A program made the translations under genes and the position numbers. From IMG/VR virus record IMGVR_UViG_3300035670_000661, positions 1 through 37,266 of that record: DNA of 37,266 bases. One strand, written 5' to 3'. Positions within the stretch are counted from its first letter, which is position 1; the number at the start of each line of letters is the position of its first letter. Below the pieces are notes generated by a model. The model saw nothing but the letters and a program-made list of their open reading frames with translations. It had not been told where the DNA came from and made no database searches. This DNA comes from a virus. Positions 13,141-37,266 of the stretch are shown here, in pieces.

Positions 13141-13418
13141 CCGATGAGCGGACGGAGAGGGCATATAGGCGCCAGCCGCGCGGATAAACACGCGAGGCTC
13201 CCGTGCCCTCTTCCCTTCCCTGTCTGACTGACAGCAAAAGACAGCCGCAGCCATAGGCTAGGATTCACCTAAAACCCCATTCCCAGCCCCAGAAATACGG
13301 CAAAAGCTCCCCTCCCCCTAGGGGGGGAGGGGAGGGGTCAGCCGGTCGGCTCGCTGCGTATATGTGACCCTCCACCAATGTTCTATTTTCAACAAACGAC
13401 CCCCTATCAGGAGGTGTT
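13141..13418 (+). other. Divergent control region with G-rich hairpin upstream of terminase
   Basis: Non-coding DNA between the minus-strand block and the late genes. It contains a small hairpin CTGTC-TGACT-GACAG near 13220, and at 13307-13334 a perfect 12-bp stem CTCCCCTCCCCC/GGGGGAGGGGAG with a TAGG loop. The G strand of that stem (13321-13337: runs of 7, 4 and 4 G separated by single A) could form a G-quadruplex. A -10-like TATTTT lies at about 13385-13390. The position before the terminase genes makes it a candidate late promoter region and packaging site; both are inference. Confidence 0.45.
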
Positions 13419-15602: not shown

Positions 15603-16850
15603 ATGGCACTAAATCCCGGCGAGAAAATTCAGAACGGCATCGTCGTTGACAGCGATGGCCGTCAGGTCGTACTCGTAGAAGACATTGTTATTGACGAGGT
15701 TACAGTCAATAACGAGGTTGAAATCAAGAATGATGCTGATTCCGCGATTCCGGTGTCGGTGCCCGGGTCGATTCCGGTCACGGACAACAACGGTTCTCTC
15801 ACGGTTGATGATGGCGGAACGACGCTTTCCGTTGATGACGGGGGCGGCGCCCTCACCGTGGACGGCACCGTCGGCGTTTCGGGGACCGTCACTGTTGACG
15901 GCTCCGGTGTTACGCAGCCGGTAAGCGATGGTGGTGGATCACTCACCGTTGACGGAACCGTTAACGTCGGCACCGTCACCGGCACCGTCTCAGTCGATGA
16001 TGATGGTGGGTCGCTAACCGTCGATGACGGCGGCGCTTCCCTTACCGTCGATGGCACCGTTGATATTGGCAACACCGTCTCGGTTGACGATGATGGCGGG
16101 AGCCTCACGGTTGACGATGGGGGCACGACCCTTAGCGTTGATGACGGTGGCGGTTCGCTGACCGTTGACGGAACTGTCGGTGTCTCTGGCACCGTGACGG
16201 TCGATGGCTCCGGCGTTACTCAGCCGGTGTCGGGAACCGTCACCGTTCAGGATGGCGGCAGCACCGTTAGCGTTGACGATGGTGGCTCATCCCTCACGGT
16301 GGATGGCACCGTTGCGGTTTCCGGTGTCTCCGGAACGGTCGAGGTAGTTGACGGGGGCAACACCCTCTCGGTTGATGATGGCGGCTCGTCCCTCACTGTG
16401 GATGGCACAGTCACCGTGCAGGACGGCGGGAATGTAATTAGCGTCGATGACGCCAACGGCTCCCTAACGGTTGACGGAACGGTTACTGCTTCGCTTAATA
16501 CTGCTGCGATTAACGATGGCGCCACGGCGCTGACCCCGAAGTTCAAGCTCGTAAATATTGCTGCTTCGCAGACTGACAGCAGCGTAGTTGCTGCGGTTGC
16601 CAGCAAGAAAATTCGCGTGTTGGCGGTTGCTGCTGTTGCCGGTGGAACCGCAACGGACCTGACGTTCAACACTAAGCCCGGGGGCGCCGGAACGGCAATT
16701 TCTTGTAAGTTTGCCAATGCTGCAAACGGCGGAGAAATCCTTCCCTTTTCGCCGGTTGGCTGGTTTGAGACAGCTTCCGGTGAGGGTCTGAGCGCGACGA
16801 CCGGCTCCGGTAGCACGACCGGAATTCAGGTCGTGTACGTGGAGGTCTGA
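15603..16850 (+). CDS. Repeat-containing receptor-binding/fibre protein
   Basis: A 415-residue protein. Residues about 30-300 are tandem imperfect repeats built on TVDDGG(G/S)xLTVDGTV, with a longer unit (GVSGTVTVDGSGVTQPVS) present twice; this suggests a beta-solenoid or triple-beta fibre stalk. The C-terminal ~105 residues (FKLVNIAASQTDSSVVAA...VVYVEV) lack the repeat and look like a compact beta-sandwich tip. Repeats at DNA level (GTTGATGACGG variants) could recombine and change fibre length. It lies between the terminase and portal, next to a glycine-rich adhesin. Confidence 0.75.
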   Translation: MALNPGEKIQNGIVVDSDGRQVVLVEDIVIDEVTVNNEVEIKNDADSAIPVSVPGSIPVTDNNGSLTVDDGGTTLSVDDGGGALTVDGTVGVSGTVTVDGSGVTQPVSDGGGSLTVDGTVNVGTVTGTVSVDDDGGSLTVDDGGASLTVDGTVDIGNTVSVDDDGGSLTVDDGGTTLSVDDGGGSLTVDGTVGVSGTVTVDGSGVTQPVSGTVTVQDGGSTVSVDDGGSSLTVDGTVAVSGVSGTVEVVDGGNTLSVDDGGSSLTVDGTVTVQDGGNVISVDDANGSLTVDGTVTASLNTAAINDGATALTPKFKLVNIAASQTDSSVVAAVASKKIRVLAVAAVAGGTATDLTFNTKPGGAGTAISCKFANAANGGEILPFSPVGWFETASGEGLSATTGSGSTTGIQVVYVEV

Positions 16851-34836: not shown

Positions 34837-35742
34837 GTGAAGCTCACCGAGGAAGCTTTTCTTCAGGCAATAGCGAAGGTCGATGCCGGAGAGTCGATTC
34901 GAAGCGTCGCCGCTCAGGCGGGCGTCGATGAATCAACCCTTCGTCGCCGCCTTAAACGTCGCGGCTTCGGTGCTCCCGATGCTCTGCGTGATGACGTTGT
35001 CGATCCGCAGGAAATCCCCGTAATTTTCAGGGACTACTCGTCGCAGCCTCATCATTACGTCTATCCCCTTGGCGACCTGCATAAGGGTTCGGCCAAGCAT
35101 CAGGGGAGGCGTTGGCGCGAGTGGCTGGGGTATCTGTGCGAGGAGTCTGATCGCTCGCTGCTCAATACCGGCGACAATTTCAACTCCGCGATCATCGGCT
35201 CCAAGAGCGACGTGTACGACGAGGTCATGCGCGTTGGTGACGCCAAGCGCGAGCTTCGAGAGGAGCTTCGGCCGCTGGCTGAGCAAGGGCGCGTTGATTT
35301 GATGATGCCCGGCAATCACGAGGACCGGATTACCCGAGCCGTTGGTGATTGCCCCGTCCTCGATGTCGCAGAATTTCTCGACATCCCTTATGTCCGGGCT
35401 TCGGCGCTGATCGTCTATCAGGTCGGCGACATGAGCTACGAGCTTTATGTCAGGCATGGCACCGGGAACGGGCAGTCGTTGGCGACGCTTCAGAAGTCGG
35501 CGTTCACGATCAGCGCGGACGTGTACGTAACCGGGCACACTCACCGGCAGGCCATCACGGCCGATGACTATTTCTACCGGGACGGGGAGAGGTGCGTTCG
35601 CCGTCACCGCTACTTCGTCAACAGCGGCTCGTTTGTCGGTTTGGAGAATTACGCGGCGCAGCGTGGGTACGCCCCGACGCGGATTGGGGCGCCGAGGATT
35701 TTCCTCGATGGCCGACGCCATGATGTCCATGTCAGCCTCTAA
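34837..35742 (+). CDS. Calcineurin-like metallophosphatase with N-terminal HTH
   Basis: A 301-residue protein. Residues 1-45 form a helix-turn-helix (EAFLQAIAKVDAGESIRSVAAQAGVDESTLRRRLKRRGF), then a binuclear-metal phosphoesterase with Asp80/His82 (PLGDLHKG), Asp113 (NTGDNFN), Asn160/His161 (MPGNHEDR), His207 (VRHGTGNG) and His234/His236 (VTGHTHRQ), all the family's metal ligands. The substrate could be a nucleic acid or a nucleotide. GTG 34837 has a good SD (GGAGGGG); upstream in-frame codons lie within the leader. Confidence 0.88.
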   Translation: MKLTEEAFLQAIAKVDAGESIRSVAAQAGVDESTLRRRLKRRGFGAPDALRDDVVDPQEIPVIFRDYSSQPHHYVYPLGDLHKGSAKHQGRRWREWLGYLCEESDRSLLNTGDNFNSAIIGSKSDVYDEVMRVGDAKRELREELRPLAEQGRVDLMMPGNHEDRITRAVGDCPVLDVAEFLDIPYVRASALIVYQVGDMSYELYVRHGTGNGQSLATLQKSAFTISADVYVTGHTHRQAITADDYFYRDGERCVRRHRYFVNSGSFVGLENYAAQRGYAPTRIGAPRIFLDGRRHDVHVSL

Positions 35743-35745
35743 AAT

Positions 35746-35763
35746 GTCACGTAGCAACGTGAC
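35746..35763 (+). other. Short intergenic hairpin/dyad
   Basis: Perfect 7-bp inverted repeat GTCACGT-AGCA-ACGTGAC between the phosphatase stop and the SD (GGGAGG) of the next gene. It could be a weak RNA hairpin or a regulator site; no T-run follows. Confidence 0.45.
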
Positions 35764-35777
35764 TATCGGGAGGCATA

Positions 35778-36122
35778 ATGGAACGAGACAAGGTAATGGA
35801 GTGGGACCTGACGGAGGCGGCAGCAAAGACGGTTCGCGTCGCGGTCGATGACAACGGCCATACGCGCCTGACGGCCCCTCCGACTAGGGAGCTAAACGAG
35901 TTCGCGGACGCTCGCGCGGGGACTCGCCCAATCCGGCCGGAGGTTCTTGACAACGGCATAACGGAGGCGAGAGAGGAAGCGGCTGATTTCCGCAACTACA
36001 TCGTATGGCGAATTCTTTACCGCAACGATTCTCCGGAGAACACGGAGAGGCTAGGACAGGCTCTCGGCCACATAATCGCGGCGTACCACCTTCTTTCATT
36101 CGTAGAGGCCACTCACGAGTAA
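35778..36122 (+). CDS. Hypothetical protein, 114 residues
   Basis: ATG 35778 with SD GGGAGG. Mixed content with a helical C-terminus (AADFRNYIVWRILYRN ... ERLGQALGHIIAAYHLLSFVEATHE). It ends where the structured region of 36137-36246 begins. Function unknown. Confidence 0.7.
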   Translation: MERDKVMEWDLTEAAAKTVRVAVDDNGHTRLTAPPTRELNEFADARAGTRPIRPEVLDNGITEAREEAADFRNYIVWRILYRNDSPENTERLGQALGHIIAAYHLLSFVEATHE

Positions 36123-36136
36123 TGGGCCTCGCCAAA

Positions 36137-36246
36137 CTTTCCCTCGCGCCCCCACGACGCCCATCGTGGGACCGCTTCGCGGTGTCCGGTCTAGCGTCTC
36201 CCCGCCTCCTAGCTGGGCTGGTGCGCGCGAGGGAAAGACCCTTTTT
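36137..36246 (+). ncRNA. Predicted cloverleaf RNA upstream of the holin gene
   Basis: A closing stem of 13 perfect pairs (CTTTCCCTCGCGC 36137-36149 with GCGCGAGGGAAAG 36225-36237) encloses three hairpins: CCCACGA/TCGTGGG (36151-36157 with 36164-36170), ACCGC-TTC-GCGGT (36171-36183) and a 10-bp stem with three G-U pairs (36186-36195 with 36212-36221). A TTTTT follows (36242-36246). The 3' strand of the closing stem holds the only SD-like sequence (GAGGGAAAG) before ATG 36251. It may be a small RNA or a cis switch for lysis. The pairing is seen by eye; no family was recognised. Confidence 0.55.
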
Positions 36247-36250
36247 CAAC

Positions 36251-36529
36251 ATGCTCGAATCATTAGTCCTGAAGGGAGCGGTCGGCTTCCTCTGCATTTT
36301 TCCCGCATTTATTTTCGGCGCTTCGATTTCGAACGTCGCTGAGCAGTTCGTCCTCTTTGCGGGGGCGATTACGGCTGCCGCCGTGGTCTGGGCGAAGGTC
36401 ATCCGCCCGTTGATTCAGGGCGTCAACAAGCTGAACGACGCCTATCAGGCGGCGATCAAAGCTGAGTCGGAAATTTGCGACATCAGGAAAGACATTCACG
36501 AAATCAAGGAGAAGCTGAATGGCTCGTAG
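36251..36529 (+). CDS. Holin candidate
   Basis: A 92-residue protein with two hydrophobic helices (LVLKGAVGFLCIFPAFIFGA, about 5-24; EQFVLFAGAITAAAVVWAKVI, about 33-53) and a charged helical tail (SEICDIRKDIHEIKEKL), located directly before and overlapping the amidase gene. This fits a small holin. ATG 36251 lacks a close SD. ATG 36122, overlapping the previous stop (TAATG), is in frame and would give 135 residues, but the added segment is the highly structured 36137-36246 region. Confidence 0.65.
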   Translation: MLESLVLKGAVGFLCIFPAFIFGASISNVAEQFVLFAGAITAAAVVWAKVIRPLIQGVNKLNDAYQAAIKAESEICDIRKDIHEIKEKLNGS

Positions 36530-37073
36530 GCTGAGGCGCCCGTTTGAGCGCGTGAAGAAAGATGTGGTCAATCAGTCGAGCCGGTCGATCCCGAGGCCGG
36601 TGCTGATCGTCCTGCACAGCACCGAGGGGCATAACCGCCCGGGGGTTTCTGACCTCATCAACCTTGGTGACTATTTCAACAAGCCTTCCGTGCAAGCGTC
36701 CAGTCATGTCGCCGTCGATGCTGAGGGCTTCGCCGCGAAATACGTTGAGGATTACCGCAAGGCTTGGACGTGCGCCGGGTTTAATTCAGCTTCGCTGAAC
36801 ATCGAAATGGTCGGCTTCATGCGCCAGAAGACTTGGCCGAAGAAGCAGGTCAAGAAGACCGCGAAGTACATCGCGTATTGGTCGAAGAAATTCAACATCC
36901 CGATTCGTGAGGCTCGCGTGGATGGCGTCACCGGACGCATTCTTCGCAGCGGGGTTATTCGTCACAGTCAGCTTGGCGTCGTCGGTGGTAATCACGGCGA
37001 CCCGGGTGAGAATTTCCCGTTTGATCGTTGTCTTCGCTACGCGAAGTTCTACCGGGTTCGGGGCTGGCTTTGA
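36519..37073 (+). CDS. N-acetylmuramoyl-L-alanine amidase (endolysin)
   Basis: A 184-residue amidase_2-type enzyme that cuts the bond between muramic acid and the stem peptide. His33 (VLHSTEG), Glu95 (LNIEMVGF), His149 (IRHSQLG) and the NHGDPGENFPFD end (158-169) fit the zinc-binding and catalytic sites. There is no signal peptide and no separate wall-binding domain, so release would need the holin. It overlaps the holin gene by 11 bp and its stop overlaps the next start. Confidence 0.88.
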   Translation: MARRLRRPFERVKKDVVNQSSRSIPRPVLIVLHSTEGHNRPGVSDLINLGDYFNKPSVQASSHVAVDAEGFAAKYVEDYRKAWTCAGFNSASLNIEMVGFMRQKTWPKKQVKKTAKYIAYWSKKFNIPIREARVDGVTGRILRSGVIRHSQLGVVGGNHGDPGENFPFDRCLRYAKFYRVRGWL

Positions 37074-37266
37074 AGCGTTACAGCTTCGGGGAGGCCAAGG
37101 TTTCCCGCTCGTGGCATTGGCTTCTCACCAACGCTCGTAGGAATGGTTGGCGCGGGTGGGTGAACGGCCCTCGCGGGGGTCTGCGCACGTACGTGATGCA
37201 GGCGCAGCTTTATGCCCTGTACCGCTCCGGTCGCGGCGCACCCGCCTTTCCGCCTAACGGCCCGTC
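37070..37266 (+). CDS. M15-like peptidase fragment running off the right edge
   Basis: TTG 37070 overlaps the amidase stop (TTGA). The 65 visible residues (GPRGGLRTYVMQAQLYALYRSGRGAPAFPPNGPS) resemble the front part of phage D-Ala-D-Ala carboxypeptidase-type (M15) proteins, but the zinc-binding half is not in the window at this end. The open codon TC at 37265-37266 plus A at position 1 makes TCA and continues in frame to the stop at 169. A lysis accessory role is likely from position. Confidence 0.6.
   Translation, partial: MKRYSFGEAKVSRSWHWLLTNARRNGWRGWVNGPRGGLRTYVMQAQLYALYRSGRGAPAFPPNGP

Follow-up and report, generated by a model that had tools for sequence, protein, structure and literature searches.

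We analysed the 37,266-nt record IMGVR_UViG_3300035670_000661 of an uncultured phage; this whole stretch of DNA is referred to as the window. The genome encodes an integrase, a large terminase, a portal protein, a major head protein and an amidase endolysin. Its capsid relatives among cultured phages are distant (<30% identity), and nearly all of them are phages of actinobacteria (Microbacterium, Arthrobacter, Cellulosimicrobium). Within the late gene string, a segment with the features of a cloverleaf RNA is located between a 114-aa gene on its 5′ side and a 92-aa gene on its 3′ side. An AlphaFold model of the 114-aa protein was of low confidence (pLDDT 56). The 92-aa gene is presumed to encode a holin on the basis of its position, the hydrophobicity of its product and a weak match to a holin PHROG (E 0.022). 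The features of the locus are as follows, with G002 denoting the homologous phage described below.

35778–36122, + strand: 114-aa gene, 84% identical to its counterpart in G002
36137–36237, + strand: cloverleaf RNA element, comprising a closing stem and three hairpins; the homologue folds alike, with 10 compensatory pairs
36137–36149, + strand: 5′ arm of the 13-bp closing stem; 13/13 paired in both phages, with 2 double changes and 1 single change
36151–36170, + strand: hairpin 1, 7 bp (36151–36157 with 36164–36170); 7/7 paired in both phages, with 3 double changes
36158–36163, + strand: hairpin 1 loop, CGCCCA; 6/6 identical in G002
36171–36183, + strand: hairpin 2, 5 bp (36171–36175 with 36179–36183); 3/5 pairs kept in G002, with 1 double change
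36186–36221, + strand: hairpin 3, 10 bp with a 16-nt apical loop (36186–36195 with 36212–36221); 9/10 pairs kept, with 4 double changes
36197–36209, + strand: C-rich apical loop TCTCCCCGCCTCC; 13/13 identical in G002, containing CCTCC as in the 16S anti-Shine-Dalgarno sequence
36225–36237, + strand: 3′ arm of the closing stem, carrying the Shine-Dalgarno (SD)-like purine run GAGGGAAAG (GGGGGGAAG in G002)
36238–36247, + strand: unpaired linker ACCCTTTTTC from the RNA to the holin start; 9/10 identical in G002
36251–36529, + strand: presumed holin gene, 92 aa, with two hydrophobic segments, immediately 5′ of the endolysin gene
36519–37073, + strand: endolysin gene (Amidase_2), 184 aa

An earlier note, made from the sequence of the window, had described four nested helices at this locus (a 13-bp closing stem and internal hairpins of 7, 5 and 10 pairs), and all four are present; three of the ten pairs of hairpin 3 are G-U. 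The minimum free energy of the element was about −59 to −60.4 kcal/mol, compared with a mean of −40.2 for shuffled sequences (z −5.97; none of 200 shuffles was as stable), and the element ranked second in stability among the 3,716 stretches of 110 nt along the + strand. The window contains one perfect 13-bp inverted repeat whose spacer is 40–120 nt, whereas random Markov sequences contained a mean of 0.085 such repeats and at least one in 12 of 200 cases. The same note had described the fold as followed by a T run. The run itself exists (TTTTT, 36242–36246), but ACCC intervenes, so that it lies 4 nt from the stem. An intrinsic terminator is unlikely given this gap and the corresponding TTGTT in G002.

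A search of IMG/VR with the capsid protein yielded six contigs, one of which, G002 (IMGVR_UViG_3300046007_008906, 41.8 kb), extends into the lysis region and has the element in the equivalent position, flanked by the same two genes. The ends of this contig overlap by 1.15 kb at 91% identity, and it is probably a near-complete genome of ~40.7 kb that was joined from two strains or has a diverged terminal repeat. Folded separately, the G002 element formed the same four helices. The two elements were aligned using MAFFT, which considers sequence only and is blind to structure, and a single 2-nt gap was introduced; 67 of the 70 pair cells were kept on this alignment. Among the 35 pairs, 17 were unchanged, 10 had changed on both sides and still paired, 5 had changed on one side and still paired, and 3 were broken. 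Two of the three broken pairs fall in the small hairpin 2, which is shorter or bulged in G002 and has the 2-nt indel in its loop. None of 500 shuffles matched the observed pairing values, and when the structure was slid along the alignment, pairing fell to 40–53% with at most one double change. With the portal-to-capsid substitution pattern as the null, all 10 double changes retained pairing against 4.4 expected (p ~2e-4) and double changes were in excess (p ~0.001), values that come from two sequences, take positions as independent and test a structure derived from one of the two. Unconstrained RNAalifold arrived at what is essentially this structure, and the covariation term was −6.25. A covariance model built from the two members found only these two, setting them apart from ~1 Mb of other sequence by more than 100 bits.

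The earlier note had left room for in-frame translation from ATG 36122, and we considered whether the region is an N-terminal extension of the holin whose GC-rich codons fold by chance. In the window, the frame is open from this ATG through the holin gene, and it overlaps the upstream gene at TAATG, which could permit reinitiation. However, ATG 36122 is missing from G002 and the frame is broken there by the 2-nt indel; therefore, the region is not a holin extension that starts at 36122. Identity by codon position in the RNA region was 0.62/0.68/0.73, with no periodicity, compared with 0.84/0.90/0.48 and 0.74/0.86/0.42 in the flanking genes, which show the usual third-position divergence. The note had also held that a lack of compensatory changes combined with amino-acid conservation and synonymous substitutions in the 36122–36250 frame would refute an RNA, and the alignment of the homologous loci that it proposed gave the opposite outcome on both counts. 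A coding origin of the fold is thus very improbable, even though an in-frame GTG at 36221 aligns with an ATG in G002. This GTG (36221–36223) lies 10 codons 5′ of the holin ATG and is a possible second start; a short holin extension of ~10 residues, which would overlap the RNA at its 3′ part, is possible on sequence grounds. Taken together, the ten compensatory pairs, the absence of codon periodicity and the loss of both start and frame in G002 strongly support a conserved structured RNA rather than a coding sequence.

The perfect 13-bp inverted repeat could also be read as a DNA-level feature, namely a recombination, packaging or replication site. All of the non-Watson-Crick pairs that are kept are G-U on the + strand (three per phage) and never A-C, which identifies the + strand as the folded strand, and this strand alone, not the minus strand, folds alike in the two phages. 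A role at the level of DNA is accordingly the least probable of the explanations considered.

The element is a real and so far unnamed RNA element. The Infernal search that had been suggested found no credible match in Rfam, either for the whole window at the gathering threshold or for the region of both phages at E values up to 10, and ARAGORN detected no tRNA or tmRNA genes. In cultured phages, blastn and tblastn searches with the region and its genes revealed nothing related to the RNA, to the holin or to the 114-aa protein. Scans of IMG/VR with the holin, the endolysin, the 114-aa protein and a phosphoesterase returned nothing or G002 alone, and GTDB genomes searched with the capsid and 114-aa proteins gave no match. 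DNA patterns based on the closing stem and the conserved loops retrieved 0, 13 and 81 stretches, of which G002 alone proved real when the fold and closing stem were checked. The RNA model was likewise unmatched in the distantly related phages Shocker, ctEqG8 and ctLwi270 and in the five other contigs with related capsids, which are fragmentary and stop short of the lysis genes. The scarcity of homologues is due as much to the collections and to seeding with exact peptides as to rarity. In the open-licence literature searched, we found no account of a structured RNA preceding a phage holin gene, and phage genomes can now be searched for this new RNA family.

Upstream of the holin start (ATG 36251), the sequence that best resembles an SD is the purine run within the 3′ arm of the closing stem. 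It had been reported as the only such run before this ATG, which we confirmed and which also holds for G002. The run is predicted to be fully paired in both phages, as expected of a leader that sequesters a ribosome-binding site, although it lies at long spacing from the holin ATG (13–15 nt in the window, 10–13 nt in G002); the linker and start codon lie just outside the stem. No sigma-70-like site, which may not be the promoter type of the host, was found in 35000–37266, and a terminator scan called no terminator-like site at the element. Since neither was found, the element is probably part of the operon mRNA. The note had proposed either a small phage RNA or a switch that delays holin translation. 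Because the SD-like run is predicted to be paired in both phages and the linker and start are outside the stem, these predictions favour a cis role, and we give about even chances to a structured leader of the late mRNA that acts in cis and masks the sole SD-like run before the holin start. In such a leader, the closing stem would lock the SD-like run in base pairs with the start codon and short linker 3′ of it, the folded state would keep holin translation low, and opening or binding of the element would alter it. The element may thereby control holin synthesis and the timing of lysis. Release of the run by a terminating ribosome is not a conserved arrangement and is plausible in G002 only, because the upstream stop codon is 15 nt from the stem in the window but 3 nt in G002. 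Points against a cis leader are that the spacing is longer than optimal, so that the run may not be a working SD, that simple sequestration needs one hairpin and leaves the invariant loops and the four-way junction unexplained, and that the whole comparison consists of two homologues.

The loops are the most conserved part of the element. Unpaired columns were identical at 34 of 40 positions, compared with 42 of 70 for paired columns (Fisher p 0.009), and the loops CGCCCA and UCUCCCCGCCUCC are invariant between the phages. Such C-rich loops suggest that a partner, either an RNA or a protein, acts in trans, and they would be its likely contact. The main rival to a cis leader is a small RNA processed from the late mRNA, or transcribed from an unrecognised promoter, in which the UCUCCCCGCCUCC loop, with its CCUCC, pairs with SD regions of host or phage mRNAs in trans. 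Its pattern of invariant loops and covarying stems follows the logic of the NfeR1 RNAs of rhizobia, whose ultraconserved, unpaired CCUCCUCCC anti-SD loops block ribosome-binding sites while the stem sequences diverge (PMC10746234). On the other side, no promoter was matched, the U run is separated from the stem and broken in the homologue, and a scan of both phage genomes for sites complementary to the C-rich loop revealed no convincing shared mRNA target; the lone syntenic match was a G-rich DNA stretch upstream of the terminase. The CGCCCA loop could pair with TGGGC immediately 5′ of the element in the window, but not in G002. An independently transcribed small RNA is less probable because neither a promoter match nor a conserved terminator was found, and we consider the small-RNA explanation as a whole somewhat unlikely. 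The lack of a loop partner in the pairing scan would also fit a site for a phage or host protein, such as an antitermination, RNA-stability or packaging element, with the proximity to the holin gene incidental. A four-way junction with two invariant loops would be typical of protein-recognised RNA, but the element matches no Rfam family and the phage has an ordinary large terminase rather than a pRNA-type motor, and a protein site appears quite unlikely.

Phage lysis timing has mostly been studied at the level of the holin protein, and leaders that sequester the ribosome-binding sites of lysis genes, such as the stem upstream of lambda S and that of the T4 e gene, are single hairpins. Like them, the present element places an SD-like run within a stem just ahead of a lysis gene, but it is a junction with conserved loops. 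It is conceivable, though unlikely, that the element represents a new class of regulatory RNA, a ligand-controlled lysis-gene switch that times lysis through the holin start by sensing a factor in trans. The cloverleaf would then sense a phage protein or an RNA that pairs with the anti-SD-like loop, and the holin start would be released or hidden accordingly. A conserved structured RNA immediately 5′ of a presumed holin gene would mean that the mRNA, too, sets the timing of lysis, through a fold more elaborate than simple sequestration calls for.

Comparison with known structured RNAs did not place the element in any of their families. The NfeR1/αr14 small RNAs of alphaproteobacteria are alike in that a C-rich anti-SD-like motif is invariant in loops whereas the stems diverge but keep their shape (PMC10746234). 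They differ in being free-standing and in having three hairpins, each with CCUCCUCCC; the element has a single CCUCC loop (UCUCCCCGCCUCC, in one hairpin only) in a closed four-way junction, is located between phage late genes and has no Rfam or sequence match. The c4 antisense RNA (RF01695) is also a small structured phage RNA inside an mRNA, but it gave no match at E 10 and its gene context is different. Similarly, the phi29-type pRNA (RF00044) is ~110 nt long with paired ends and an internal junction, but the element has no Rfam match, occurs with an ordinary terminase and has a four-way rather than a three-way junction.

Several other features of the window were observed. Upstream of the terminase, a ~45-nt leader (13353–13400, TATATGTGACCCTCCACCAATGTTCTATTTTCAACAAACG) is near-identical in G002, to a degree exceeding the surrounding DNA, and may be a late promoter or a regulatory leader. 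An inverted repeat (13296–13328, CTCCCCTCCCCC-TA-GGGGGGGAGGGGAG) lies between the gene blocks that run leftward and rightward; it is followed on the minus strand by CTTTTG and is perhaps a terminator, but it is absent as a repeat in G002. The 415-aa gene that precedes the tail-fibre-like gene contains internal direct repeats (125 nt at 81% and 60 nt at 82%) within 15798–16408.
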